DNA from: Polytrichum commune
Taxonomy: Eukaryota; Streptophyta; Polytrichopsida; Polytrichales; Polytrichaceae
Assembly: GCA_950295325.1 (NCBI GenBank)
Contig: OX485804.1
Span: 61,162,533-61,226,532 of the forward strand
Direction of reading: 5' to 3'
Length of the DNA stretch: 64,000 nucleotides
Shown: piece by piece, positions 4,045 through 52,900 of the stretch
Layout of the letters: each line of letters begins with the position of its first letter
Numbering within the stretch: position 1 is the stretch's first letter
Notes under the pieces: model-generated
The model's input: the letters and a program-made list of their open reading frames with translations, nothing else
The model's database searches: none
What the model was told of the DNA's origin: nothing
Position numbers and translations under genes: made by a program

Positions 4045-5302
4045 TCAAAAATACCCTGCTTGCATGGACCCATTGGAAAATTCTTCATCTTCACGGTGAT
4101 CGATAAACATGATCCCATACTCCTTACCCCGACAAAGTGCTTGTGAAAACACTTCATGGGTAACCCTCGGAGGCATCGCTTTGAGGTCACTGGCTTTTTC
4201 ACCAACATCAAGGTACCATTGCTCGACCCCGCCCGGTGCAAACATGAGGACCATCCGTGCAGGTTTCTTCGACTTGTTCTTGAACGAATGTGGTACGAAC
4301 CGCGGCAAATGTATGAATGAGCCTTTTTTACCGTGAAACTCGCGCCCTCCCAAATCCCACATCAGCTCCCCTTCAAGCATGTACCAAGTTTCATCCTCCA
4401 TCGTGTGCACATGTCTGGGTAATCCTTGGCCCGGGTAGATAACTTCTTCAAACAAAGAGTACGATCCACCGGTTTCGTTACCTAACGCCTTAATCGTTAC
4501 CAGTACTCCCAAAACCCACACGCTGATTCCATCACCTGCAAGGAGAAACACAAAGCTACTACTTAAAAAAACAATCATGATGTCAGAAGCATTTGAGGCT
4601 AGGTTGTGGTCTTATCCTTGGGGGGGGATCACTCCTGCACACTAGAATTTTAAGTGCGATTAAGATAGGGTCCATTTTCTGTTTCAAATTATGAATTATA
4701 AAAGACTTGATAACATATACAGAATTGGATACTCATTATCAGAATATACTACATATAGTCTAAGAGTACTCATCAACTATGCAGTATATCCCATCCATTT
4801 GTGCATTACTTCATAGCCCCACTGAAATCTCATGTGTGGACGAATTTCATGAAATGTACATCTTAACAGTTGAATTTTGGCAAACGGTGTTCACTTGTCC
4901 ACTGAAACCACATCCAACCAATTGGAAACTACTGGCAATTTAAGGGTCCTAGAACTTCAATTTATTGTAGATAAAGACACAATCAAAGCTCAGGAGCAAA
5001 CATTCATACTCGAATAGTTTAAAAAAAAAAGACCAAATGTTTTTGTCCACTGATTTCTCCTGACCTGCTGCACCCTTTAAAACATCCATGACGAGCAAGG
5101 AGATACTACCATGATGCCCATATATGGCATTGACCACTTGTTCAGTTTGTGTGCACTCCAAAGATTGAAAATGTCACCAAATGATTCAAATTTTCACTTA
5201 TTGTGCCCAAGTTTGTGTATTCTTGTCTTCCTTGACCATTCTTATCATCCTTGACCAAACCTAGGGCTAATTGCACAGGGAAAATTTACCTGGTGCAAGC
5301 AT
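4045..5302 (-). CDS. Small single-domain cupin protein
   Basis: Two coding exons are proposed: 5302-5290 (ATG CTT GCA CCA G, donor GTAAAT) and 4535-4045 (acceptor TCCTTGCAG), giving 167 residues. The spliced start reads MLAPGDGISVWVLG. Cupin motif 1 is visible as PRHVHTMEDETWYMLEG, supplying the two His and the Glu that bind metal. Motif 2 is GSFIHLPRFVPHSFKN. The length and the GESVWVLG-like opening fit single-domain cupins related to quercetin dioxygenase-like proteins of plants and bacteria. Substrate and reaction cannot be read from sequence. The upstream exon piece 5342-5303 stays open and follows an acceptor (TTTCTTTCAG), so it is 5' UTR or the protein starts further upstream. The intron is 754 bp. 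The gene stands alone; no neighbour suggests a pathway. Confidence 0.8.
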
Positions 5303-13566: not shown

Positions 13567-14112
13567 TGTCGTGTAAATAGCGATCGTGTGTCACTGCAGC
13601 TCAAATACCAACCACCACTAACAAACAATACTAAAACACAGCAAAGTCACATATAATCAACACACCTCGACAAAGAAAGAAGAGAATCAAACACTCATGA
13701 GCTATAAATCTCTCTTCAAATGCACACAATGAGTCAAACTATCTCTCATTCCACCACGGAAGAATCCAAGAGTGTAAGTAGGGGAAGAAGAACTCAAGAT
13801 TTATTACAAAAACATGCAATCTTCACCTCACACAAGCTCTCTCCACACACTCACTCACAGGACTTGACTTGGCAAGAATGCCAAGCCAAGGAGGAGGCTC
13901 CTCACTTAGGAGCCTTCCTCTCCACATCTAGATTCATCCATCCAAACCTAAATGGATGAAGCCGAACGGATAACGTGCGTCCGCTGACGCCGCATACCGT
14001 GACAGCTATCCTGTAAATAACGATCGTGTGTTACTGCAGCTCGAGTACCAACCACCACTAACAAACAACACTAAAACATAGCAAAATCACACATAATCAA
14101 CACACCTCGACA
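13567..14112 (-). repeat. Putative 3' LTR of the gypsy element
   Basis: On the minus strand the unit starts TGTCGAGG at 14112 and ends ACACGACA at 13567, giving TG...CA ends and a short TGTCG inverted repeat. It directly follows a polypurine tract (TAAGGGGGGGGCA, 14125-14113), as expected for a 3' LTR. Its first 106 bp (14112-14007) are repeated as its last 106 bp (13672-13567), so it could instead be a small LTR-internal-LTR element. The matching 5' LTR was not found beyond 23.5 kb. It is related to 1-603. Confidence 0.6.
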
Positions 14113-14125
14113 TGCCCCCCCCTTA
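14113..14125 (-). other. Polypurine tract
   Basis: The minus strand reads TAAGGGGGGGGCA immediately before the TGTCGAGG start of the putative LTR. This is the usual plus-strand priming site of LTR retroelements. Confidence 0.6.
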
Positions 14126-14442
14126 GTTGACTATGGAGTCCCGCCAAGCAGCTAGGACCAATGTCAATCCAAAGGGCATGGATAATGAAAGATTGCTCCG
14201 CAACTAACTACTGTGGTGATCGTCATTCCAAGGAACTGTAGGCTGGGTGCAATGTGAGCCCCATCTTTAATCGCCTCTGATGTTTGGACATCATATTCCA
14301 AAGAATTAAATCCACCGCCTTATGTTGATTGCATCTTTAAGCCATAACTCCTCATTTTCCATTTGGACAGGTACAAGATGATGAAAACCACACAAGATCA
14401 TTGAGTACGATTGGTGGAAGCACCAAGTACCGAAGATCCTCG

Positions 14443-14577
14443 ACAGCGATGACAACTCTACTGTCCAGATGGTAGAGAAGTCAAGGGTGGCCTCAAGCAT
14501 GCCATGTGCCAACTGCGTTGACATTGATCACACAAGAATATAGTAGCCGTTTTTTTCTTCTCTCCACAAACAAAACA
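14443..14577 (-). pseudogene. PHD finger at the integrase C-terminus
   Basis: The sequence shows the C4HC3 zinc pattern: CFVC, then CDQC, H in RSWH, C in MAC, and finally SCHRC just after a TAG. The TAG occupies the place where the family has Trp two residues before the seventh Cys. PHD fingers usually read histone H3 tails. Many plant Ty3/gypsy elements carry a chromodomain here instead, which directs insertion, so a targeting role is inferred. The domain is in frame with integrase and separated from the integrase core by a basic region rich in Arg. Confidence 0.8.
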
Positions 14578-15786
14578 TGGAAGATTCTCTGGAACGACGG
14601 CCAGTTGAGGATGAATTGTACCATCAATGGGTAGATGACATGGGGCACAATTTTTGGAATGCTCACGATATTCCCTGCCATCTTTGTCTTCCAACAACAA
14701 CAAACGACTCGGCAACACCCCCTTCACCCGAAGGATAGTGCGTCCCGCCCTGACATTCAATGTCGTAGGCGCCTCACGTTGGAGATAAACATAATCCCCC
14801 TGTCGGAATCTCCGCAACTGGGGTCGGTAAGCGCCACAGCGAATGTGCGCATAACGTAATGTGTCACGGTGCTGAGCAATGGACAAATTCTCCATGGCCA
14901 TAGGCATGGCCCTCAGGAATAATTGAGTCCGCTCCTGCAAACACTCTGCCCAAATGTTTGGGTCATCCAAGTCCACAACAGGAACTAACTTTTCCCAAAT
15001 AGAACTTGGGAGTATAGGTTCACGTCCATACAACATCTGATACGGGTTGTAGGACGCCAAAAAGGCCTGCCTACTAAATCGATAGTCCATAGCAATCCAA
15101 AGTAACATAAGGTCCCAATCCCAATGGCTTCTCCGAAGTAATCCATACTTCCTCAAGCCACGCTTGGTTGTCTGAACAACCCGTTCAGCCAAGCCATCCG
15201 CCTCCGGATGATACCGAGAGGTGGTGTGGTGATCTATGAGCGCCTTAGTGCACAACTCCTCAAAAGCACTGAGGAACTCCCTCCTTTGCTCCGTCAACAC
15301 CTCAGCCGGTGCTCCAAAACATGCTAACACACGATCCAAAAAGGCGGTTGCGGCCAACTCTGCAGAGTTTTGGGATAAAGCAACAAGCTCAATCAACTTG
15401 CTAAAATGCTCCACCATCACCAACACGTATTTTGCCCCACGTGGCATGACCGCCAACGGTCCCGCAAAGTCCAACGACCAACGGTAGCCCAATCCCATGA
15501 TAGGTAAGGGTTGTAACTGAGGTGACAAGGTGTTAGAGCTAGACCTGACTCGGTCACAAACTTCACACCTTCCGACATAAGCAGCCACCTGCTGATACAT
15601 GCCAGTCCACCAATATTGGCCACGCAACATCGAATGTGTCCTGCGTATGCCAAAATGGCCAAGTTCCTCGTGCACTTGTCGCACCAAGGAGGCCCTCTGA
15701 TCCGGTCTAGGGACAATACGCCTTGTCCCATCCGACAACAATCGAAATAGCAAACTGTTCTCCCAACGGAACCTTGTTATTTGATG
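14578..15786 (-). pseudogene. Ty3/gypsy integrase (broken)
   Basis: The HHCC zinc-binding domain is seen as HEELGHFGIRRTH...CEVC at the N-terminus, followed by GYRWSLDFAGPL with the first catalytic Asp. The second Asp region reads LTEQRREF where families have TDQG-like sequence, so the catalytic Asp appears replaced by Glu. The third residue lies in ADGLAERVVQTTKRGL. Integrase would join element DNA to the chromosome. A TGA at 15787 separates it from RNase H in the same frame. The open frame from 15753 to 14458 is 431 codons, the longest in the element. Confidence 0.88.
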
Positions 15787-16250
15787 TCAAATCCTATCAT
15801 TTTCCATTGCCGAAATAGACGAAGGAAATGCACCATGTTGAAGCTTATGTAATACGGAAAGATCCTCCCATATATCCGCAATAGCTTGAGGCCGATCAGT
15901 CTCATCATCCGAGCCCTGTATCGAAACCTCCACAGATACACCAGAAAATAAAGTGAGGTAAGTAGTCGCGTGCCAACCGGGAACTGCCTCTCGATCACAA
16001 TCTCCATGCCACTTGGCCCCGGTCAAGTCCTCATCCGAAGGACTTGGATTGCGTGAGAGTCCATCTGCATCCAGGTTGGTAATCCCAGCATGGTGTACCA
16101 CCTCAAAGTCATACTCTTGGAGCAACAAAGCCCACCTGGCAAGCTTGCCAGTAAGCTTATCCGACTCCATGAGCCACCGTAATGGTTGATGGTCAGTCAC
16201 CAAAGTAAAGCGTTGACCATAAAGGTACGGCCGAAAATAGGCAATAGCCC

Positions 16251-18154
16251 TGTGAGGCCAAACCCACCACCCTTAAGCCATTAGTCCGGGTATGGGTTTG
16301 AGAATCACATGTCTTATGTCGAGAATTGTAGAAACATGAAATTCAACTTCAACTCTCCACCAATGCACTAGTCGTGCTAGTCTTTATTAACTTCTTCCAA
16401 GAGTTCACAAGCACCCTTCCTCCTACTCACCCCTTAGAGCGTGTTCCACTCTCCATGTGAGAGTGACTAGCTCACTACTCCTCATTTTTAAAGATTTTCA
16501 TTTATTTCGAAACTTTCTTAGCTTCACACTTTGCTTGAGACAATGATGCCTCGATACCACTAGTATCGTGTATGGTTATTCCCTTAGCGGACTCAAGCTC
16601 CCAAGTCATAGCCTTTGCCACACATGCCCTTGCCGATATTCCTCTTGAGCTTTTGGTCTTAGCAAAACTTTCACTTGTTGAATCCATGAATTAATGGCCA
16701 ACTCCTCAGCTTGATAGCAACCCCACACTTGATGCCTGCTCCGCAACTTAGTGTCAACTCCATGTTTAATGTCAACCCCGTAGCTTAGCACCAACTCTGT
16801 ATCTTAATGCCACCATGTAGCCACACACTTAACCAACAATCTAAGGTAGGGTGTAGCTTGAACTAACCAAAGACTAATTAACTGGGAGGCTAATTAGGCT
16901 AGTAGGCACTAATTAACTAATAAACCCAACTCTTAGCTGCGGCTACTTCTAACTAAATAAACCCAGCTCCTTCATAAACCCAGTTCCTTACTTCTAACTA
17001 AATAAACCCAGCTCCTTCATAAACCTAGCTCCCTACTTCTAACTAAATAAACCCAGCTCCTTCATAAACCCAGCTCCCTACTTCTAACTAAATAAACCCA
17101 GCTCCTTCATAAACCCAGCTCCTTACTTCTAATTAAATAAATCCAGCTCCTTCATAAACCCAGCTCCCTACTTCTAACTAAATAAACGTACCCAGCTCCT
17201 TCATAAACCCAGCTCCCTACTTCTAACTAAATAAACCCAGCTCCTTACTTCTAATTAAATAAATCCAACTCCTTCATAAACCCAGCTCCCTACTTCTAAC
17301 TAAATAAACCCAGCTCCTTCATAAACCCAGCTGCCTACTTCTAACTAAATAAACCCAGCTCCTTCATAAACCCAGCTCCTTACTTCTAATTAAATAATCC
17401 AGCTCCTTCATAAACCCATCTCGCTACTTCTAACTAAATAAACCCAGCTCCTTCATAAACCCAGCTCCCTACTTCTAACTAAATAAACCCAGCTCCTTCA
17501 TAAACCCAGCTCCTTAGCTGCGGCTACTTCTAACTAAGCTTCTCCACCCTCAACCACAAAAACCAGAAAATGAACACAAGAGAGCTTCTCCAAGGCCTCC
17601 CCCTAATTCACCTACCTAATTCCACTAATCCCACTAAGTCCCCTACCTAATTCCACATTTTTTTCCCGAGCTCTAAGAGCTCAACTTCCTAGAGGAGAGA
17701 GAGAGAGAGAGGAGAAGAGAAAAAAAAGTGAAGAGAGGAGGAGGAAGGGGAAGAGAAGAGAGAAATGGAATGAGGGAGAGAGAGGAGGAGGGTGAGAGGA
17801 TAGGAGTGAAGGAAGGTGCACCCAAGACCACAACCTTCTAATCCTCTCCTACTTAGTAGGACCTTATCCTATCCACTAAACCCTCACCCCCTAAACCAAC
17901 AAGAACATGTTCTAATTCAAACATTTAAATCAAAGGCACTTCCCCTTGCCTCATCAAGCACTACTCCTCTAATCAAAACACTCCCTAATGTCACTAAGCT
18001 TCTAATTCACCACACAAAATGGCTTAAGGCCTAAACATAAATCTACACCAAGCCTCACTCTTTTTATACTTTTGATTGTTTTAACACACTCCAAATGCAA
18101 TTCTAAGTAGGATCTAAATATATATAAAATATGAGCACTCATTTTGGGCTCATA
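16251..18154. mobile_element. Nested 1.9 kb insertion with 5-bp TSD
   Basis: AGCCC occurs directly before 16251 and directly after 18154, and removal of the segment restores the RNase H order. The ends are TGTGAGGCCAAAC and the complement of TATGAGCCCAAAA, an imperfect inverted repeat. A 5-bp duplication and a TG start fit an LTR retroelement or a solo LTR; the other end reads TA rather than CA. It contains a 45-bp minisatellite and purine-rich DNA (17690-17800), and no credible protein. Confidence 0.75.
16925..17530. repeat. 45-bp minisatellite, about 12 copies
   Basis: The unit combines TACTTCTAACTAAATAAACC, CAGCTCCTTC and ATAAACCCAGCTCCC. Starts are seen at about 16989, 17034, 17079, 17124 and 17169, then with small indels to 17520. 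It lies wholly inside the nested insertion. Confidence 0.9.
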
Positions 18155-18349
18155 AGCCCATACCGCCGCCAATGCTTCTCCCTCGTAGGACGAATAATTA
18201 GCCTCCGCCGTGTTATTGCTTCGCGACGCGTAAGCAACAACATACTCTCGGCCAAAGTCATCTTTCTGAGTGAGAACTGCTCCCAAACCCAATGAGCTCC
18301 AGTCCATATGCAACTGGAAAGATTTGGAGACATCTAGACGTTGAAGCAC

Positions 18350-19300
18350 TGGAGCCGTACCCAGTTTCTACTTCAATGTCTCAAATGCTTGTTGCTGCTC
18401 ACAACCCTAAGTCCAAGGTTGGTCCTTGCTCGTGAGAATGGTCAGAGGCTTGGCGATCAAGCTAAAGTTCTTGACGAATCGCCGATAGTAATTCGCCAAG
18501 CCCAAGAAAGCACAAAGTCTCGGCACATCGACCGGTGCCGGGATCTTTTGCAAGGCGTTCACCTTAGCTTGCTGCACCCAAGACCTCCTGGAATAATCAT
18601 ATGACCCAGATATGTTTGTCGATCATGGAAAAACTTGCACTTGCCATGGTGCAAGCGCAATCCCCACCGCCGTAATCGCTCAAAAATGGCTTGAAGATGC
18701 CTTACATGATCCTCTGGTGTTTTGCTGAAAATGATCACATCATCAATATAACACCGAGCAAAAGGCAAACTAGAGAGTACTTAGTCCATCACTCTCTGAA
18801 ACTCGGCAGCTGCATTCTTGAGGCCAAATGGAAGAAATTTCCAATGGTAAAGTTGATCATTCCCATCATGATCAACTTTCCATAATGCGGTTTTCACTCG
18901 ATCTCCCGCAAGCAATGGGAGCTAGTGATAGCCGGATCTCAAGTCTAGGGTACTAAAGACTCGAGAAAATCCGATGGCATCGAACAACTCCTCGGGGATT
19001 GGCATGGGATAACGATCCGACTTGGTCTTCCGATTAACTGGACAGTTATCCCCACACATCCGCTTCTTCGTCCAATTACCAAAGATATCCTTCTTCGATG
19101 GCATCAATGTAGCACAAACATACTCCCCGTTGGAAAATTCGAATAGTTTGCCTGCCAAAAGCTCTCGACAACGGGCCTGAACGCTAATCCGCTCGGAAAC
19201 ACTGAGTCTATAAGGTCTCCGAAAAATGGGATGGTCGTCCTTCAACTGAATGTGGATGGGGTTTCCTTTATAACCTTCAAGATCCTGAAGGCTAAAAGCA
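18350..19300 (-). pseudogene. Ty3/gypsy reverse transcriptase (broken)
   Basis: The frame contains PMPIPEELFDAIGFSRVFST and LDLRSGYH, followed by the catalytic YIDD at 18750-18739 in ARCYIDDVIIFSKTPEDH. Further on are LRLHHGKCKFFHD, TYLGHMI, and the connection sequence with GLANYYRRFVKNFS. The YIDD box retains both Asp. Stops interrupt it after SGYH (TAG), before VLSSLPFARC (TAA) and in the connection region. Two compensating indels occur at A and T runs near 19300. The domain copies element RNA into DNA. Confidence 0.9.
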
Positions 19301-19773
19301 AAACACCTACGTTACGAGCGAATAAATGCTCATATTTTCCGTGCCTCAGCACCAGTGAGATGAGGGCCCAATTCCAATGGCCAATCATCAAAATAGGTGG
19401 TCTCCTTCTCCACCAGAAGAGAACCACTTGGTGCAGGCACGGACTCTAACTGCTAATGAGAGGAGGGGCCATTAACCATGCCCCCAACCTCCGTGCTAGC
19501 ACTAGAGTCTGGTCTTTCTTCATCACCACCAATATGTGATGATGATGCCATTACAGGAGGTGAAGAAATCGAAGCAGTGTAAAAATGTTGAGCTCGAAGC
19601 TCCTCCATCACATGCTGCTCGAATCGAGAAATTTGCTCGGCTTCTCCGACCATGGCTTCAATTCCCTCCTCCATGGATGTGGACCGCGGTGCCCCCTGAC
19701 CAGAGTCCTTTGCCCCCAGAGACATCAACTGGTCACCACGATGCCTTTGCAATGCAAGGCATAAACCAAACGT
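19301..19773 (-). pseudogene. Linker between methyltransferase and RT
   Basis: This is the same frame as the methyltransferase and RT. It encodes an acidic, Ser/Gly-rich segment with EEGIEAMVGEAEQISRFEQH (a possible short helix). No family is recognised. It ends at a TAG (19453), after which PLELGPHL..EARK leads into the RT N-terminal region. It may hold the start of the RT polypeptide or a spacer. Confidence 0.5.
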
Positions 19774-20712
19774 TCATACCATAGTATGAAAATCCATGGC
19801 TTGGCCCAACACAAAGCGTCGTTGGCCCTCAGAAAGGCCAGGAGCTGCGGTGGTACCAGTGTGGAATCCCATGGCACGTTCCCGTTCATCAACCAAGGGT
19901 TCGGTGTGGGTTTTGGTGTTAGTATCCCACATCATATCCGGCCCCCGATCGCGGAAGGCGAATGACTGTGGAAACATCATAAAGGTGGGAAAGGCCCTCC
20001 GTGGTAACCCCACTTTGTTGACCAATGCCAACGGGGATAAATCATTTCGAACAACCGGCAAAGAGTTCCGGTTTGGATCCAAGATGTCATCCACCTTCTG
20101 ATCCAAAGGTGGAGGCATTACAGAAAATGCTGCAGCTAAAGTAGATGGCGGTGCGAGGTTGGTCCAAATCCACCGAGGCCGGTGGACATAAGATCCAATT
20201 CTCGCGGCATCCACAAAAATGAAATCTCCAAGGTGTTGACGGACATATTGACCGCCTTCCAGCACCTTGTCCCGAGAGTCTCTCAACAAAGGTACATTCT
20301 CGAAGATATACCCTGGCGGGGAAGGTTGTTGGGAAAACCACCACTGCATGAGGCGGATGAGGTCCTAAAATAGACTAGACCTGGGATCCTCTAGACCTTG
20401 GCCTGCTCTAGCACGGGAATGGCCTTGGCATGGCCAACCCTCAACCACCATATCCACCAGACCCAAGTGTCGTAAGTCGGCCTCACTGATGAGTGTAACA
20501 TTACAAGGGAGACGTGAAAAACACCCACGAATGGCACTCGGGTGTAACTGTTGTGGATACAACACCATCAACTGGTGAAGATGGTGACGAGCCACACGGG
20601 TGGACACCTGAGAATTGTCCACATAGACATACTGTTTGACCGTGAGGCCAACCTCCAATACGGCTGTTAATCCTGTGCCAATGCCCCCAAACAACTCCAC
20701 CAAAGTAATCCC
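19774..20712 (-). pseudogene. Cytosine-5 DNA methyltransferase domain in a retrotransposon
   Basis: Motif I is TLVELFGGIGTGL (AdoMet binding). Motif IV is DMVVEGWPCQGHSRA with the catalytic Cys at codon 20430-20428. Motif VI is IFENVPLL (ENV, Glu at 20301). A motif VIII-like segment is DAARIGSYVHRPRWIWTNL. Motifs IX-X are ERERAMGFHTG and GQRRFVLGQAMDF. The motifs are in linear order I to X, as in DNMT3, DNMT1 and bacterial enzymes, not permuted as in plant DRM. One TAG at 20367-20365 lies between motifs IV and VI, in frame; otherwise the domain is uninterrupted. It sits between protease and RT. The enzyme would methylate cytosine in DNA, perhaps element copies; this is inference. Confidence 0.88.
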
Positions 20713-21065
20713 AGTGTTTGGAGGGCGCCACAAAATAGGACGTGCCAACGTGGATGGAGTATCCGGTATAAATGGTGTGGTAGAACCGAGACAGAGGACA
20801 ATGTCCTCACACCTTCGGAATAAGCCGGCGGAATCACGCCACGGTGGTAAAGGGTCCTTGGGGTGGCGTATCAAGGCATTCCTAGGTGCCATCTCTGGTG
20901 GGTCTTCAACACTCCCCATAAATGCCAATGACTCCTCCAATAATGCGGATCCATAAGGCAATGTATCCACAATAGCACTGCATTCAAAGACCATGGATAA
21001 TGGTGCGATGGTGGCGGCCGCTGCAAATGCCACAGGAATAAGTTCCCTACGGCCGTCTCCAGCCG
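20713..21065 (-). pseudogene. Unassigned segment between protease and methyltransferase
   Basis: About 115 codons in the methyltransferase frame, with SMVFECSAIVDTLPYGSALL and PPWRDSAGLFRRCEDIVLCL. I recognise no domain. It may be an N-terminal extension of the methyltransferase, such as a partner or target-recognition segment, or protein captured with it. Confidence 0.5.
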
Positions 21066-21917
21066 ACCAACCTGGTTGGATCCAAACCTCCTCAGTCCAG
21101 TTGTCTAAACCAAAACCGAGAGGGTAAAGTGCTTGCTGACCAACTAAAATATTATAGTTGGTCGCATCCGTCACCGTACACTTGAGAAGAAAAGGTGCGG
21201 GTGAATCTCCAGGCTTCACTCGGAAGCTAAGTTGTAATGGCTCCTGCGTATAACTTGTGCCTACTCCACGTGACCAATGGACGTGACAATGGTGAATGGA
21301 CAGGGAGCCAAATCCTCGGCCGCCAACCCCAACTCCTGGGCAAGCCTCTTGCCGATCATAACAGGTTGTGCTCCCGAATCCATCATCATACATTGGGGAG
21401 CAACTCGAATAGGGTTGCCCCCAGTCCAACTAATCACCAAAATGCCAGAATCATTCACCATACGTACAACGCCAGGTCCGATGCCTCGACGCTCGCGAGC
21501 AGGTCGAGCAGCGAAATCTGAGAGATAAGCTGCGCTCGCGGAGGCTCGTGAATCATAAGATGTGGTGGGCTCTCAGCCATCCGAGGTGTGTGCGTCAAAA
21601 GACGTAATGGCCTCTGCTGCAAGCCTCGCTCGTCGTCTAGCCGTTTCCTCCGGGTCCTCCGTGGTAGGATGGTCAACGGTGGCTTGAGCCACAGTCAAAG
21701 AAGACAGGGGTGCCTTTCCTTCGAAAATCCTACCGGCTAAGTGAAAAACCTTAGCGGGTTGGATGTCGGATGACGACCACTCCATAGCTGTGAACAAAGG
21801 GGTGTGCAACACTTTGGATGCCAAAGTGTGCACCAAGTCAGTCGCCATATTCGAAGCCTCTAAGCTCGAATGACGACTACTGATAGATTGGACAGCATCC
21901 GCCAATCCAAAAGACAA
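21066..21917 (-). pseudogene. Retroviral-type aspartic protease
   Basis: The active-site loop is MMMDSGAQPVMIG (DSG at about 21400), followed by KRLAQELGL. The second half, after a frameshift near 21265, has NYNILVGQQALYPLGF, the ILG-like second signature. The upstream 21917-21573 frame (FGLADAVQSISSRHSS and following) links it to Gag. A TGA (21573) and a TAG (21261) interrupt it. The protease would cut the Gag-Pol polyprotein. Confidence 0.8.
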
Positions 21918-21929
21918 TGGCAGGCGGGC

Positions 21930-23450
21930 CTAGCCAATCTGATCTGCGGGACCATTGTCCCAGGCTCGTAGGCTATTCACAGACTCCCCTTTGGTCGAAG
22001 GCATGGCTCGTGACACGGATTGAGCACGTGTCACCGCTGCGGAGCTCATCACCTCCCCCGAGGCTCCGAACATATAATAATCCGGAATGGAGGAACTAGC
22101 CTGAGCTCCGGAGGAAGACGGTGAGGGCAAGACTTGGCCGGATGACACCAAACTTTTGAACCTCTCCTCCAAGGCTCCAATCTTTGCCTCCAACGTCTTC
22201 TCCCGATCGGAAGCAGGACGTTTCTCTCGATGGAGAGCGAAGCAGTTCTCCACCGCATGATTGTTCTGCCTACAATGGGAATACTTCAACTGCTTGGGTA
22301 AATGTTTACCCGCCCCCTTCGTCAAGACCTTAGCGGGAACAAATGGTTTCCGCTTCGGATTACCTACGGTCTGGGCTGGCCTTTGCTTTGAAGGACAATC
22401 CTTCTTAGCATGGCCCGCTTGCCCACAAGACCAACAATACATGGTCTTATCCACCTCTGCCTCCGCCAATCCTGCAGCTGCAACCGCAACCTTCCGGGAT
22501 TAGCTAGAATCCACTAGCAAGGACACCAAATCGGTGGCGTCGTGCTGACACAAGGCACGATCACATTGCTCAACAATAGCGAAAGCCTCTGCAAGTGTCG
22601 CACGGCTACCATAATCCATGATGATCATGGGCAGCGCTAAGTCAATGAGGCGTTTGTCAATCTTGGACAAAAAAACCTTCACCAACTGGCTCTCTGCAAA
22701 AACACCTCCAGATTCTCTAGCAAACCTCGCCAACCTCGTGTACATGGTACGAGGTGTGTCCTCTTTCTCTCGTCGAAAGTCTTGGATCCGCTACATTTGA
22801 TCTCGGCGGAAACCTTCATATTCCTCCTCTACATGGAGTTGGAATTCTTGCAGAGGATCAAAATCAGGCGGAGCACCTAAAGAGGCTAATGCCGCCTGGG
22901 TAGCCTGGGCATATCGAGAGAGTGGAAGACTCGGACTCGACGTACTCGCAGATGCGGACGCGGAAGCCTGATCTTTAGGCCCACAGGGAAAACTTCCCTC
23001 CACATCCACCACAACGATGCCCTCGGCTTGCTCCGGATTCACCACAGGAGCGGCTAATAAAGTAGAAGTTGCGCCGTCCTTTAATGCGGAAACCAACTCC
23101 ACCCGAGTCTCCCAATATCGCTCCACCTGACGCAACACCATCCAATGAGCATCCATCCATTGCTCATAAGTCTGGAGCGCCTCGTGCTCCAAATATTGGG
23201 GTAGTAGCTCGAACGCATACTAGTCATTGAAACTGGTATTGCGTTGACGCTTCTCCTTCATCCATGTCCTGAACCGAATTTTCCAATTTTGTAGGGATGG
23301 TCCTTGCTCGACCGGAAAATCGGTCTCGGATGCCGCCTCACGTCTTCTCCTCCATCTCGTCAAAGGATCCCACCTAAAGGACGTGAGACCGAGTGTCAGT
23401 CCTCCATGCCAAAGTAGGCTGAAAAGCCTCGTCGGATGCTACCACTGGTT
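21930..23450 (-). pseudogene. Gag with CCHC zinc knuckle (broken)
   Basis: The capsid-like part includes QNWKIRFRTWMKEKRQRN, YAFELLPQYLEHEALQTYEQ and DFRREKEDTPRTMYTRLARF, the last typical of Ty3 Gag C-terminal capsid. The nucleocapsid knuckle CWSCGQAGHAKKDC fits C-X2-C-X4-H-X4-C. A second knuckle, HCRQNNHAVENC, has Tyr where the first Cys is expected. All is in one frame, interrupted by TAG at about 23220, TAG at 22791, TAA at 22500 and TAG at 21930. The start codon is not identified. Confidence 0.82.
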
Positions 23451-23530
23451 CAACGTCCAAGACGTCCGAGGATCGACCTTCCGATGATGCCGGAGACGGA
23501 GTACGATAATGTTGGCTCCACGTTGTAATC

Positions 23531-24760
23531 ATAAACCCGCAATGGGTTTGGTCACTAGAGCCAACTATCTAAACTAATGTAGTGTCAAGGTAAAGGATCA
23601 AAATGTGAAAGGCAACCTGCACCTGCAAACACCACCAAACTTATGGTCTACTGATCATCAATCCAGCCTCACCATAAGGGAATACAAGCACCGTCCACTT
23701 GGTGCACATACAAGGGTCCCGTCGGTCATTACTCCGACTTCACCCCCACAATACCTTATTACAATCTATGACAACACAAAATGAGGCAATACCGACAACT
23801 GCCAGCAATACAACCCACCACGGGGGAAGATACCAAAATAAAAAACAATAAACAATGCAATTTTCAGCACTGGATCCTCTTCCCCAAAACAACACTCAAG
23901 CAGAAATAGAAATTTACCGCAGCCAACCGGCACCCGCCTACGGTTGGTGGTCAAAAATGAGGGTTGTTTGTTGCCATGAAAAGAAAATGCACATCTCTCA
24001 TCTTCCGCTACAACATAAAATATTTTCCTCCCTGAAATCCCTGGAATATGTGTTTCTAAACACAATTCGCCCTTAACAATTATCTTGTTAAGTCGAATGA
24101 TGATTCCATGTGCCAATGCGCTCCACCCCTCGGCAATTCCTCAACAATATAATAAACCTATCCCAAAATAAATCCTACACCTATCCCCAAATAAATTCCA
24201 ACAACAATATAATAAACTTATCCCCAATAAAATCCCAATGCCCTTATTTGCCTTCTAATAAAAAAAGAATGAAAACCCCCGCTTTTAACAAGTACCTCTA
24301 TCAAGTCGTTGCGGAAGAAAAAAAAGTTAACCTTAAATTCGCCGAGATCCCACGTCCTCCACGTGTTGCCGGATGCTCCCGCGAACCTTTCCCGCAATGC
24401 TCCACCTTTCTCAACAAAATGATTTTGGTACCAAACCTCCCACAGCCCCCAAGGAAGTCGAAAAGGTGCTCTTAATCTTTTCGCCGAAGTTTGTTATTCA
24501 AAAATCCAAGAATGGCACGTTCTTGAAAAATTTGAATACCCCCAACTTTCGTTTTTAATTAATGAAACACCCATAGAGAAGGTCTCCGTCAAGATACATC
24601 TCTCTTAGATCCAAGGAATTTGTATCTCAGTTTTTTTTTAATTCAAAAATACAAATAAAGAATATAAGGTGATTGTATTTTTGTATAAAAAAATACAAAT
24701 AAAAAAATAGATAAAAACAATAATATGTTTTTTGTTTTAAAATTTAAAAAAAAAACCCCT
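23531..24760. other. Region upstream of Gag, no LTR found
   Basis: If the element were complete, its 5' LTR would lie here. I looked for the 13567-14112 blocks (TGTAAATAGCGATCG, CACACCTCGACA) and did not find them. The part from 24560 on is very AT-rich. The element is either truncated at its 5' end or interrupted further out. Confidence 0.45.
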
Positions 24761-47774: not shown

Positions 47775-50700
47775 ATGTGTAGAATGCAGGCACAAATGGA
47801 GATGGTCGGACATAGGCTCTGGGCATCGACAATCTTATGTTGCTTGTTACTAGGTCAGGCGGGGGCTGACATTGCTCCTCCGGTGGAACAGTGTGATGCA
47901 ACAGGATGTAACCTCAGTAATGCTTACGGGACATGGCCAGACAGAATTCCTTGCGAGGTAAACCTTTTAGACCTGTTAGTGTGGGTAGAGGTTAGAGATC
48001 TACTGTGAATAGTTTTCTTGTTCAGAATTGCCGTTACTCAGGTGAGTATACCTCCTTATTATCTGAGCATTTGGAAGGAATACTTCTGAAGTAGGTAGAA
48101 ACTCCAGAGTCCACACCCCTGCTCTGAACTTTCTCATGAAATTTCAAGCACATCTATCAGTAATTAGGGAGTGACCTGAGATGTTTTCTTTTATCGTTCA
48201 AAGATGAGGACATGTAAAAAAATTTACTTCACTCGGTTGTGTGGTGATTCATTCCGCCCCACGCAGCAACACATGAACTCAATGACGTAGTCTGCAGTAA
48301 AAGGTTTCAAGTTGCCGGACTCCTTTCCTGGTGAAATTGCAAAAACAATTGGAGATAGAATTGGGTGAGATGCTTATAAGCTAATCAGTTGACACGCTCC
48401 TAATGAAATGTTGAGAATCTAGAAATGTCTGGCATTCAGACCGCCTAATTCATGCCATCGCAAAACCATGACTTTGGGTCTGAGGCTTCCAACATGCCGC
48501 ACAACAGTTGTAATGCAGATTACAGTGGGTTTAGACATGATTCTGCAAATGTAGGCTGTCTGGGTCAGGAATTCGCATTTGTAATATTCGTGCACTAAAG
48601 TCTGGACCTAGTGTAGCTTTGACATAGTGTAGATTTGACATCCGTTTATGGCGCTACACATGATCATCACCTCTCAGCTGATGATGGATCGCCCTACCAT
48701 ATTTTATTTCTGTTCAGAATTGTGACCATAATCCTGATCGAACGATGATAATGTTTTCTCCTTCACAACATGATGGTTTTGGATGATTGAAATGCGCCAG
48801 GAGGCTCTATTTGTGGTTCCTACAACCTACTGTCTGCAAGTGTAGGCTGTCTGAGTCGAGGATTCTCCTCTGTAATGTACATGCATAATATCCGGATCTA
48901 TCCCGCGACATAAATAGTTTAATGGCGCTGCACTTTATCATCATCTCTCATCTGATGATCCCCCTGGCATAAGTACTTTGTGCACAGAATTGTAATCATA
49001 GGCCTGATGTCCTATGAAATGGAGATGTCTCCTCATTCATAACATGATGACTTTGGGTGATTGAATTGCACCAGTAAACTCTAGTTTGTGGTTTACACAT
49101 CCTATTGTCTGCAAGTGTTGGCTGGCTAGGGTCAGGAGTTCTCGTCTATAATGTTCATGCACTAGAATCTGGATCTAGTATACCTCCGACATAAAGTTTA
49201 TGGTGCTGCACATGATCATCATCTCTCAGATGATGATCCCCCTACCATAATCTCATTGTATCCAAACTATTTGTAACCCTAGGCCTGATCACACATCAAA
49301 TGATGATGTGTCCTCATTCACAACATGATGGTTTTGGATATTTCTTGAATTGCACCTGCAGGCAGCTCTGGTGGTGCATCCGACCACCGAGGAAGAGATC
49401 GTCCACGCCGTTGCCACAGCGGTGGAAAACAAGCAGAAAATCAAGGTGTCTACCAAATCTGGTCACACCATCCCCAAGTTGGCATGCCCAGGGACGACTA
49501 ACTCCACCTCCGGATCCAGTCACGGTGTCATCATAAGCACCACAGACTACGCATCCATAGTGCAATTCGACATACCAGCAATGACTGTAACTGCACAGAG
49601 CGGAATCTTAATGCATGACCTAATTGAAGCCATCGGGAAACAAAACCTTGCACTTCCATTCACACCCTACTGGAACGCTGTGACACTGGGAGGCAGTCTA
49701 GCGACCGCGTCACATGGGAGCTCCCACTTTGGCAAAGGAGGCGCAGTTCACGAATATGTGATAGGATTGCGCTTGGTCATCCCTGCAACAGACTCTGAAG
49801 GCTTTGCGAAGGTTGTAGCCTTAACCCTTGAAGATGGAGATTTGATGAATGCAGCGAAGGTGTCGCTGGGAGTGCTCGGAGTTGTGTCGACGGTGACACT
49901 GCAATTGCAGGCTTTGTTCAAGCGCAACCTGACTTTGGAATATGCAGACACAGATGTTGGATTGGAGGACAAGATCTTCCAAGTGGCGGAGACTGTGGAG
50001 TTTGGTGATGTCACTTGGTTTCCTTCCTCACATCAGGTTGTGTACAGGATCGATCAGAGAGCTTCGGAGAGTGCACCTGGAGATGGTCTCAACCAATTCT
50101 ATGGGTTCCAGCCCAAGCTCGGTGTGGAGGTTGAGGTTGCGAGAGCCCTTGGTCAGTCTCCGATCCTGCAAACCCAGCACTAATTGAGGTGGATGTGTCT
50201 TGAATGGTTACTTTTTCCTACTAGCCCACTTGTCGTCTCATGTGCAACATGCGATTAGTACGCAATTAGTGCGATTAGTACGAGATGGTTGGCAAATCCG
50301 ATTGCGGGATCCACTTTCCTCATGTTAATTTTTCGGAGCTCATATGAATGTCTTGTTCATTGTTAGAAGTGAAGATTCTTATGCTCATTAAATGGTCATA
50401 TAGGTCCTCCCAATTATGTTGATTATGGAGTTGGGAATGGTCATCAAATTTGGAACATGTAGTGTCCAATTTTTTCAATAATGTGTCTTTCTGGTACCTA
50501 TTCTTGGAAAGTTCTTTCCTAACCGAATACCAATCCAATATAATTATTCGATTGAGATAAGTAACCAAATTAAGCACGTCTACCTTAAGGTAGATGTGTG
50601 TTGTTTGGATACTTTTCTCCCTACGTGCATTTGTTGTAGGATATGAAACACACAATTAGTGTGAGATGGTTTAGTAAATTAAATTGTGCTTGTAGTATTT

Positions 50701-52900
50701 GCATAATCATTTTTGGAGTTCATATGATTATCTTATCCTTATCAAAGTGAATATTCTCGTTGTCATACAAGTCTCCATCAATAATGTTTAGTATTGAGCC
50801 TAGAATCATTAGCACATTTTGAGCACGTAGTCCAATCTCTTGGTCACATATCCCCCCCCTCCCCCAACCCACTCTTTTCCAATTATGTTGATTATTGAGT
50901 CTACAATTGTTGAGAAGATTTAACACACAACCCAATCTATCTAAAGTGATCGCAATTTCTTTTGGTGTATGTCCTTAGATCATGACGTAACTAGCCCCCA
51001 CTTGAATATAGGTGTCCGATTATGATAAACAACTGAATTAGGCCCCCTTACTTTAGTACGAATTGTGTAACCGTTTCAGTGGAATTTGATACGGCTTGTA
51101 CTCACGATGACCTCATTTGGTATCTATCAGAGGTGACTTAGTCTTTTATATCTACCGAAGGGTCTGATAAGTGACTGCATAAGGATTTGGGCGAACCAAC
51201 CCATACACTCGTTCCTTGTTGGATGTCTAAACCCTTGCCTCCAAGGATCCAATGTACGGGTTGGTTCACCCCAACCATGCATAGGGCCCCCATACCTTAG
51301 GTCACAAATGACCTTTCTCGAGAACAACATAATGATAGAGAGATGAGACCCATATGGAGCATTCTAACTTAGGGATTGTTTACACCATGGACCATGAAGT
51401 CGTCCCAAGGCCCTAGAACTCGTCCCGGGACCACTTTGATTTACACCAAAGGAAAAAATGACCGAATGACTATAAAGTTTGAAGTCCCCAAAAGATATAT
51501 TTAAGGCCTACATTATCCATTGAAAAGGTCCAAAGGGTTTTACGGTGGGAGAGGCAAAAGAGGTGCTCTAGTAAGAAAAAGACCTCAAAAGCTCATGGTA
51601 GAGAATATTATTATAATCAATTCTGAATGAAATTATTTTTTTGGAGAAGAGAAGAAGAAGAGAAGAGAAGACAGAAGACCAATCAACCTTGATTTCTATT
51701 TTCCAAAACTGCCCTTTCTGAGCATTTTTTTTAAAAAATCAACAAATTCACTTTTTGGTGGAAGGTCATTCTTCTTGATCCACATTCGGTTTACACCTAG
51801 TGAGAGACCCAAAGGCTTTGTAAATTGATTTTTTAGAAATCGGACCATAGAAGTCAGACCATGGAAAAAGGCCATCTTTCATGGTCCGACTTCATGATCC
51901 ATGGTGTAAATCAGCCCTTTAGTGCCCCTTGAGAATTCACATAAAGACTGGAAGCCATTTGTGTAAAAAGTTTCTCATGTGATCTCTGTGCCAGCTCAAA
52001 TCTGCGTTAATTATTAACCGCAATCTGTTGTTTGTAGAGGAAAGCGGAGAGATACTAAAGGACCGCGACGCCAAATGCTTGCTTGCCAAAGTAACTTTAC
52101 TGGGACAAGTCGCGGTTGGGTTTGGGTATGAAAAAGTCGCCGGCCATGGTTTCGAAGGCTTCCCGGTGATCGGGCATCAGCACCACATGCAATCTTCAAG
52201 CGGCTGTGAGAGGAGCACCCGTTCCGATTACTATTGCCCTTGGGACCGACGGATCAAAGGGCTCCGGTTTTTTGAAGAGTCGGCCGCAGTCCCGATGCGG
52301 AATTTGAGAGAGTTCATCAGGGACATCAAGTCCCTCCGGGACGCAGCTCACCCACTCGGCTTCTGCGGGTTGGACATTTACACCGGGTTTCTCATCCGCT
52401 TCGTGAAGGCTTCGAGCGGTGCATTTCTGGGTGCCCAAGAGGACGTGGCCATGGTGGACTTCACGTTCTACCGAGCTGGGGACGCAAAGACACCCCGGCT
52501 AGATATGGATCTATTTGACGAGATTGAACAGATTGCGTTCTACAAGTACGGGGCGAAGCCACACTGGGGGAAGAACCGAAACTACCCGTTCTATGGAGTT
52601 GGCAGGAGCTACCGTGACATCGATAAGTTCCTTGCTGTCCGGGATAGGTTTGATCCTGAAGGCTTCTTCTCCAGTGAATGGTCCGATGAAATTCTTGGCG
52701 TTTCTGATGATGTAGCCTCCGAATCGCGGCAACCTTATTGTGCACTTGAAGGGTTGTGTGTGTGCAGCGAAGACGTACATTGTGCTCCTGAGAAGGAGTA
52801 TTATTGTCGGCCGGGAAGGATATACTCTGACGCAAAAGTTTGTCGCTTCGAGGACATCTCCACTCGCAAATCTCTTATAAAAATGAGCGTAGATAGTTAG
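47775..52900 (+). CDS. L-gulonolactone oxidase-like FAD oxidoreductase
   Basis: Exons are 47775-47957, 49362-50151 and 52038-52900 (introns with GTAAAC...TGCAG and GTCAGT...TTGTAG), giving about 611 residues from the first in-frame ATG. ATG at 47796 is an alternative. The N-terminus has a hydrophobic signal peptide (STILCCLLLGQAGA) and the plant-type GCNLSNAYGTWPDRIPC. The FAD-binding part shows KVSTKSGHTIPKLACPG, ALPFTPYWNAVTLGGSLATA and SHGSSHFGKGGAVHEYV. The C-terminal ALO part has PHWGKNRN (HWxK motif) and the Cys-rich tail ALEGLCVCSEDVHCAPE. Family members oxidise L-gulono-1,4-lactone or similar lactones toward ascorbate and are probably secreted in plants. The exon 2-3 junction reads ARALEESGEILKD, matching the family. 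Both introns carry repeats. Confidence 0.92.
48465..49361 (+). repeat. Tandem repeats in intron 1 of the oxidase gene
   Basis: Units of about 272-280 bp begin near 48769, 49041 and 49322 with AACATGATG(G/A)(T/C)TTTGG, and an older one begins near 48465. Shared blocks are CTGCAAGTGTAGGCTGTCTG, GACATAAA and ATCATCATCTCTCA. Each unit ends with a GAATTGCACC(A/T)G-like segment that in the last copy is the true splice acceptor of exon 2. Confidence 0.8.
50330..51030 (+). repeat. Two R1 copies in intron 2
   Basis: 50330-50560 and 50700-51030 each carry the R1 blocks (GTCATA..AGGTC / CAAGTCTCC, GAGCACGTAGTCCAATCTCT, CTTGAATATAGGTGTCC). Both lie inside intron 2 of the oxidase gene and are oriented like copy 3. 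Confidence 0.65.
51371..51918 (+). mobile_element. TIR element R3, full-length copy
   Basis: The left end AGGGATTGTTTACACCATGG and the right end CCATGGTGTAAATCAGCCCT are inverted repeats that extend through GACCATGAAGTCG. The 548-bp non-coding element lies in intron 2, shortly before exon 3. A truncated relative is at 13177-13378. The target duplication is not clear. Confidence 0.7.

Follow-up and report, generated by a model that had tools for sequence, protein, structure and literature searches.

The window analysed here is a stretch of 64,000 nucleotides of the moss Polytrichum commune (assembly GCA_950295325.1, contig OX485804.1, positions 61,162,533 to 61,226,532). Its minus strand carries, at 19774-20712, a DNMT3-type cytosine-5 DNA methyltransferase (MT) within a decayed Ty3/gypsy-type retroelement (Table 1). 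The MT lies between an aspartic protease (PR) and a reverse transcriptase (RT, from ~19.22 kb) and shares the RT frame. As the first-pass annotation had read, motifs I, IV, VI, VIII, IX and X can be followed there in the canonical order, and the catalytic Cys stands in GWPCQGHS. The copy is damaged: stops interrupt the MT at 20365-20367 and 19774-19776, a frameshift lies between PR and MT, and the PHD finger at the end of the integrase (INT) is interrupted by a stop at 14458-14460. The window copy is a relic of an MT-bearing element. Since the first part of its MT scores below the Pfam cut-off for PF00145 (E = 3.1e-4, 20.7 bits against 22), and the second part gave zero Pfam matches, the identity of the MT rests on sister copies. 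These match PF00145 with E = 5e-13 (L002) and 2.7e-12 (L007), and the L007 MT matches DNMT3A with E = 2.4e-9. Both the canonical order I-X and the DNMT3-type fold were found in the retroelement MTs. Of 81 aligned MT rows, 80 keep the catalytic Cys and all keep the Glu of ENV. In 14 of these rows (e.g. P0031, P0032, P0042 and P0043) the residue preceding the catalytic Cys is Glu rather than the usual Pro, giving WEC instead of WPC.

The window element is a decayed copy of an autonomous moss Ty3/gypsy-type family that encodes its own DNMT3-type MT. The genome searched comprised 408 Mb on 64 contigs, seven large contigs holding ~406 Mb; seven chromosomes would fit Polytrichaceae. Its plastid PsaB likewise points to a moss, the top matches being the sequences of 8htu, 6l35 and 7ksq (1705, 1702 and 1701 bits), which are Physcomitrium photosystem I, ahead of 9lut (1667 bits) and 7wfd (1630 bits). 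A PF00145 profile search gave 353 first-look candidates, of which 123 were scored, all of them above the cut-off. The 45 scored places that were read gave 44 loci and one host DRM-like methyltransferase gene (C2:4703606; L062, G000:C2:4702600-4705000), whose motif order is rearranged on our own reading. With the window, the loci make up 45 different elements, and the MT-to-RT junction is present in 44 of these, spread over the seven large contigs; the sole element without a junction match is L029, a degraded P0011-like relic. The P0011-like subfamily, judged by eye, also persists as the relic L063. The placement of an MT inside a gypsy-type element of a land plant, as first proposed, is thus borne out. 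The outcome that was to count against it, a host gene beside a gypsy element by chance with no other genomic copy having an MT between PR and RT, did not occur. Such a chance neighbour, or a chimeric assembly, is rejected by the junction in 44 of 45 elements, and nothing was found in its favour. Marchantia-labelled relatives sit on contigs of 21-27 Mb, environmental polyproteins join MT and RT in one open reading frame (ORF), and the host DRM-like gene is a different one, located elsewhere; we regard this explanation as having a negligible probability.

Many copies are intact, and the family is large and recently active. The intact relatives whose existence the annotation had left to be checked were found. 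Ten copies have terminal A1 and A2 repeats that are 98.8-100% identical. Among 20 stretches of 10 kb, 17 have an ORF1 frame whose length from stop to stop is 1356-1386 aa, and 11 have, directly past one stop codon and without a change of frame, an undivided ORF2 of 1045-1048 aa. The MT is in a single frame in 22 of 28 loci, or 21 of 26 distinct places, among them L004, in which one of four motif patterns is missing. A divergent moss subfamily is seen in L028 (G000:C7:3958800-3968799), which has A repeats 99.7% identical and a stop within the MT, and groups with Marchantia elements. The MT is under purifying selection. This, together with a spread across deep plant lineages, would be expected if the enzyme served self-restraint, marking new copies for silencing so as to lower copy number and host cost, and were selected via persistence of the family. 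However, that selection would have to work between lineages, and the recent copies indicate a family that is not tightly restrained. We think self-restraint unlikely.

At all 44 MT-RT junctions the MT is followed by TAG, and in 43 of them the next six bases are a CARYYA hexamer (18 CAATTA, 16 CAATCA, 7 CAGTTA, 1 CAACCA and 1 CAGCCA; the exception, L032, has CACTTA). CARYYA is a known read-through signal (PMC3441728). By sequence, UAG, CARYYA and an in-frame ORF beyond are combined at 43 of 44 junctions. The junction elements comprise 26 B-type, 17 A-type and one C-type, kin copies being counted repeatedly, and the independent weight of the pattern is that it is kept in three subfamilies whose hexamers differ. 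Within the nine bases, B-type copies vary at the R position only, with the flanks averaging 7% minor bases, and the CARYYA pattern is kept despite differing would-be residues (QL, QS or QP). In L026 there is a frame change upstream of the UAG site, and the site itself is kept. The first-pass annotation had placed the MT in pol; the shared RT frame stands, but on its sequence the MT is assigned to a gag-PR-MT ORF, cut from RT by a conserved leaky UAG. ORF2 would then most likely need read-through, with the MT forming part of the abundant Gag product. Since it lies on the ORF1 side of UAG-CARYYA, the MT is predicted to be made at Gag-like rather than Pol-like levels. Re-initiation was rejected as the route to ORF2: subfamily A has an ATG at the 14th ORF2 codon (L009), but the ORF2 of subfamily B (L018, L020) offers no Met until within RT. 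Most bryophyte-clade relatives stop short of RT, as judged from the class with MT alone and from C-termini, although the end of a contig may also cut an ORF short; the exceptions, which do not end before RT, are the Marchantia gene models P0029, P0036 and P0037, apparently internally deleted. The environmental relatives P0031 and P0032 have MT and RT in one ORF.

An MT at the end of the Gag polyprotein might also methylate RNA, either genomic RNA or primer tRNA, or bind nucleic acid as a part of Gag without being catalytic. RNA can be a substrate of DNMT-like folds, as in DNMT2. For a LINE-borne DNMT, RNA methylation is raised by de Mendoza et al. (PMC5890265). Against an RNA role, the best matches are DNMT3, and none of the 49 sequences listed is named DNMT2; a non-catalytic role is made unlikely by the near-complete conservation of the catalytic Cys and the ENV Glu. 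This alternative, in either form, seems to us quite improbable.

The full layout of the family is A1-[gag-PR-MT]-UAG-[RT-RH-INT-PHD]-B1-GC-A2-B2, where RH is RNase H, and in all ten copies with both flanks A1, the ORFs, B1, GC, A2 and B2 occur in this order. A1 measures ~440 bp in A-type elements, 333-336 bp in B-type elements and 300 bp in L028, and B1 measures 105-107 bp, or 233 bp in L028. The elements start with TGTCA and end with CACGACA. The inner junction GACA-GC-TGTC, a perfect palindrome, was found in 14 of 20 loci and was not found in L011, L017, L019, L024, L025 and L027. Exact 4-bp target duplications flank all ten copies; of 350 shifted comparisons, 3 matched by chance. B1 is preceded by a G-rich tract (GGGGGCA or GGGGGCG). 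Ty3/gypsy elements have a tRNA primer site (TGG) right after the 5' long terminal repeat (LTR); in all three subfamilies of the moss family the letters after A1 are ACTTG, not TGG. The PR-RT-RH-INT order and an RT nearest to Ty3 place the family with Ty3/gypsy, but instead of two identical terminal LTRs it has A1 at one end and B1-GC-A2-B2 at the other. The termini are not ordinary LTRs, and the integrase carries a PHD finger as well. The layout could arise if integrase opened, at GC, either a cDNA built as [B-GC-A]-internal-[B-GC-A] or a circle formed from such cDNA.

The 5' repeat A1 was not found for the window copy with a blastn query that held only 251 bp of A1. In sister copies, the protease of L002 matches Asp_protease_2 in Pfam with E = 1.9e-4 (22.5 bits against a cut-off of 24.3), and the best PDB match of the L009 RT-RH is Ty3 (4ol8, E = 5.5e-78). 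The window integrase ORF matches the Pfam families Integrase_H2C2 (E = 1.6e-17), rve (E = 4e-12) and PHD (E = 1.8e-7), and its integrase is nearest in the PDB to PFV, then Ty3. The Pfam matches of window 14458-15753 include no chromodomain of the Chromovirus kind, the PHD finger being at the integrase end instead. Those of the scanned ORFs include no tyrosine recombinase as in DIRS/PAT, a DDE integrase (rve) being present instead. Among the 151 proteins in which an integrase was matched, 122 have the PHD pattern. PDB matches for the PHD finger of the window ORF are PHF12, UHRF1, ATXR5, KDM5/Lid, WSTF, DPF3, AIRE and others, which we take to be mostly readers of unmodified H3. The nested insert holds internal tandem repeats of ~45 bp (16943-17516). 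Ordinary host genes elsewhere in the window are represented by L-gulonolactone oxidase-like exons (49350-52900, plus strand) and a cupin (4045-4578, minus strand).

Table 1. Parts of the retroelement copy in the window.
Feature	Position	Strand	Evidence and remarks
Decayed retroelement copy	13567..24632	-	5' end on right; contains nested insert; blastn against genomic copies L018, L020, L027
gag part of ORF1	21930..23532	-	CCHC zinc knuckle 22395-22436; Pfam zf-CCHC E 3.1e-4; reading frames
Aspartic protease region	21264..21572	-	Catalytic MDSGAQP 21348-21392
DNMT3-type MT domain	19774..20712	-	Motif I 20671-20709; IV with PCQ (catalytic Cys) 20416-20439; VI ENV 20290-20310; VIII 20155-20193; IX 19969-20001; X 19786-19812; in-frame stops
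Leaky-stop signal, UAG and CAGUUA (CARYYA), separating ORF1 (gag-PR-MT) from ORF2	19447..19455	-	
Reverse transcriptase and RNase H start	18005..19311	-	YIDD 18739-18750; frames broken
Nested insert, 1,904 bp, in RNase H region	16251..18154	.	Flanking 5-bp duplication AGCCC
Remaining RNase H and connection	15790..16250	-	
DDE integrase (H2C2 zinc finger, rve core) with PHD finger at end	14461..15786	-	PHD 14461-14577, cut by stop
Repeat B1	14012..14112	-	
Repeat A2	13673..14011	-	13675-13922 directly matched; remainder from place between B1 and B2
Repeat B2, element 3' end	13567..13672	-	

A first protein search gave 17 relatives. With the MT region of P0011 as query 79 proteins passed, of which ten are named Marchantia polymorpha, one Sphagnum fallax and three Cymbomonas, the rest being unnamed. 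With that of P0054, 193 passed, and the 120 listed include Haematococcus lacustris, Monoraphidium neglectum and a Chromochloris-labelled entry. There is no Klebsormidium name among the matches listed (those of the P0011 search and 120 of the 193 of the P0054 search), most of which are unnamed, and a search of viral contigs found no relative. The domain orders in 194 proteins and four moss ORF2s were RT-MT-INT (107), RT<MT (11), MT<INT (33), PR-MT-RT (7), MT<RT (4), MT alone (29) and no MT (7). An RT tree of 42 rows (12 PR-MT-RT and 30 of 96 usable rows of the other type, 24 of them random) divides cleanly according to MT position (support 100/100). The MT tree (51 rows, including 49 of 80 retroelement MTs, hand-chosen) splits less firmly, with 63/97 for position 1, and the AU test does not reject a clade of position 2 (p = 0.388). 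The two positions fit either one capture and a move, or two captures. The moss element L028 pairs with the Marchantia group (95/79, and 88 in an earlier quick tree of 66 rows). The retroelement MTs stand apart from DNMT3A and moss DRM with 99/97, the two outgroup rows each being less than half filled and on long branches. DRM was rejected as the source of the MT: the host DRM-like gene has rearranged motifs and lies outside the retroelement MT group. The search for relatives in land plants and algae that had been proposed at the outset thus yielded Marchantia, Sphagnum and chlorophyte labels, and the tree placed the MTs relative to DNMT3A and moss DRM only.

Seven environmental proteins of the RT-MT-INT type (P0045, P0054, P0040, P0079, P0075, P0053 and P0056) have a further C-terminal domain after the PHD finger, with DPWAG ... 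TSPW-like motifs, which is perhaps a second, amino-methyltransferase-like enzyme. Pfam gave a weak MethyltransfD12 match in one of the seven (E = 0.013), and the best PDB profile match was unconvincing (E = 0.18). A strict motif pair is present in 4 of 67 proteins with at least 200 residues after PHD.

Plants silence transposons by DNA methylation, yet a transposon encodes a de novo methyltransferase, a paradox that has stood since 2018. The best explanation as a whole, to which we give an even chance, is that an MT carried in the particle methylates the cDNA of its own element ahead of integration. The ribosome would very probably yield mainly Gag-PR-MT, with read-through at UAG-CARYYA adding RT-RH-INT-PHD. 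Because mainly Gag-PR-MT would be made, the MT would probably be packed into the particle in large amount. Once there, it may equally well act or not act on the double-stranded cDNA, linear or circular, before integration. Integrase would then, somewhat more plausibly than not, cut the palindromic B-GC-A end junction and insert. The PHD finger most resembles readers of unmodified histone H3 and may steer insertion to chromatin without active marks, a step on which we are evenly divided. Arrival in pre-methylated form would shield the cDNA, or cut the cost per insertion so that host and element persist.

Several points weigh against methylation of the element's own cDNA. Both the activity of the MT and the expression of the moss family are predictions from sequence, and the dN/dS of the MT is 0.35-0.51 between very young copies. 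The tested element nearest in kind, KnitGypsy-Dnmt3 of the charophyte Klebsormidium nitens, gave no methylation in yeast, which its authors call inconclusive, and elements without DNMT transpose too, so that the MT is not strictly needed (PMC5890265). Furthermore, the window copy shows no CG-biased C-to-T decay when compared with the young copy L018 (CG 0.101, CHG 0.132, CHH 0.093). This is weak counter-evidence, because host methylation and lineage differences mix in. The same lack of CG-biased decay also speaks against action in trans, in which Gag-level MT would spread methylation over the host genome or other elements, so that the element's own DNA no longer stands out, or rivals are silenced. 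Such action would suit an MT encoded ahead of the leaky stop, where the yield is high, and the number of genomic matches (123 scored, 45 read), as well as the Symbiodinium methylome, which is unusual where such elements abound; however, the K. nitens methylome is plant-like despite its elements (PMC5890265), and fusion to Gag should hold the MT in particles. Action in trans is in our view improbable.

Extending the cDNA-methylation reading, a more tentative picture, which we consider possible but rather doubtful, is of an ancient green-lineage gypsy branch with a cycle unlike that of LTR elements. Its cDNA would be regenerated via split repeats, a DDE integrase would cut an internal palindromic junction (CACGACA-GC-TGTCA), perhaps in a circle, a Gag-level DNMT would methylate the intermediate in the particle and PHD would land the pre-methylated DNA in unmarked chromatin. 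In that case a retroelement would bring its own heterochromatin mark.

The kind of element has been known since 2018. The dinoflagellate and charophyte precedents mentioned in the first-pass annotation are SymbioDIRS-Dnmt3 and KnitGypsy-Dnmt3, the latter reported as a Dnmt3-class MT in a Gypsy-type element (de Mendoza et al., PMC5890265). A term search of the main text of that paper gave nothing for PHD, read-through or chlorophytes, and its one match for bryophytes concerned a host gene. Titles and abstract starts in the open-access literature gave no land-plant element of this kind. As far as these searches reach, the land-plant hosts, the Gag-side location of the MT ahead of a leaky stop, the PHD finger, the two MT positions with two RT clades and the 4-bp duplications with split repeats are new. 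The suggestion of a new land-plant layout thus holds for the host, but the layout is not unique, as proteins of this kind also occur under Marchantia and Sphagnum labels and, in large number, among environmental and green-algal sequences. The moss elements are numerous, often intact and recent, and the genetic model Marchantia is among the names borne by such elements, which opens the role of the enzyme to experiment. Handles for such work are offered by the leaky stop, the split repeats and the presence of the MT at two positions in two RT clades.

The moss family was likened to KnitGypsy-Dnmt3 by the description of that element, not by its sequence. Both have a Dnmt3-class MT in a Gypsy polyprotein, conserved key residues, purifying selection and DIRS-like repeats (A-coding-B-A-B), but in KnitGypsy-Dnmt3 the Pol polyprotein ORF is reported to hold the MT together with RT, whereas the moss MT lies in the gag-PR ORF before a leaky UAG, and the moss integrase has a PHD finger (PMC5890265). 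SymbioDIRS-Dnmt3 of Symbiodinium also has a Dnmt3-class MT in a polyprotein, active on CG in yeast, and A-coding-B-A-B repeats (PMC5890265), but it has a tyrosine recombinase, not a DDE integrase, and another RT class. DIRS/PAT elements share the split direct repeats, and some carry (adenine) DNA methylases (PMC5890265); the moss family differs from them in its DDE integrase and 4-bp target duplications. Host DRM and DNMT3 belong to the same MT class, with the motifs of DRM rearranged, as in the host gene, and those of the retroelement MTs kept in the order I-X. With Ty3/gypsy, of which Ty3 is the solved representative, the family shares the PR-RT-RH-INT order, a short target duplication and the kinship of RT-RH and integrase, and it departs from Ty3 in the added MT and PHD finger, in split repeats instead of two LTRs and in the stop between MT and RT.
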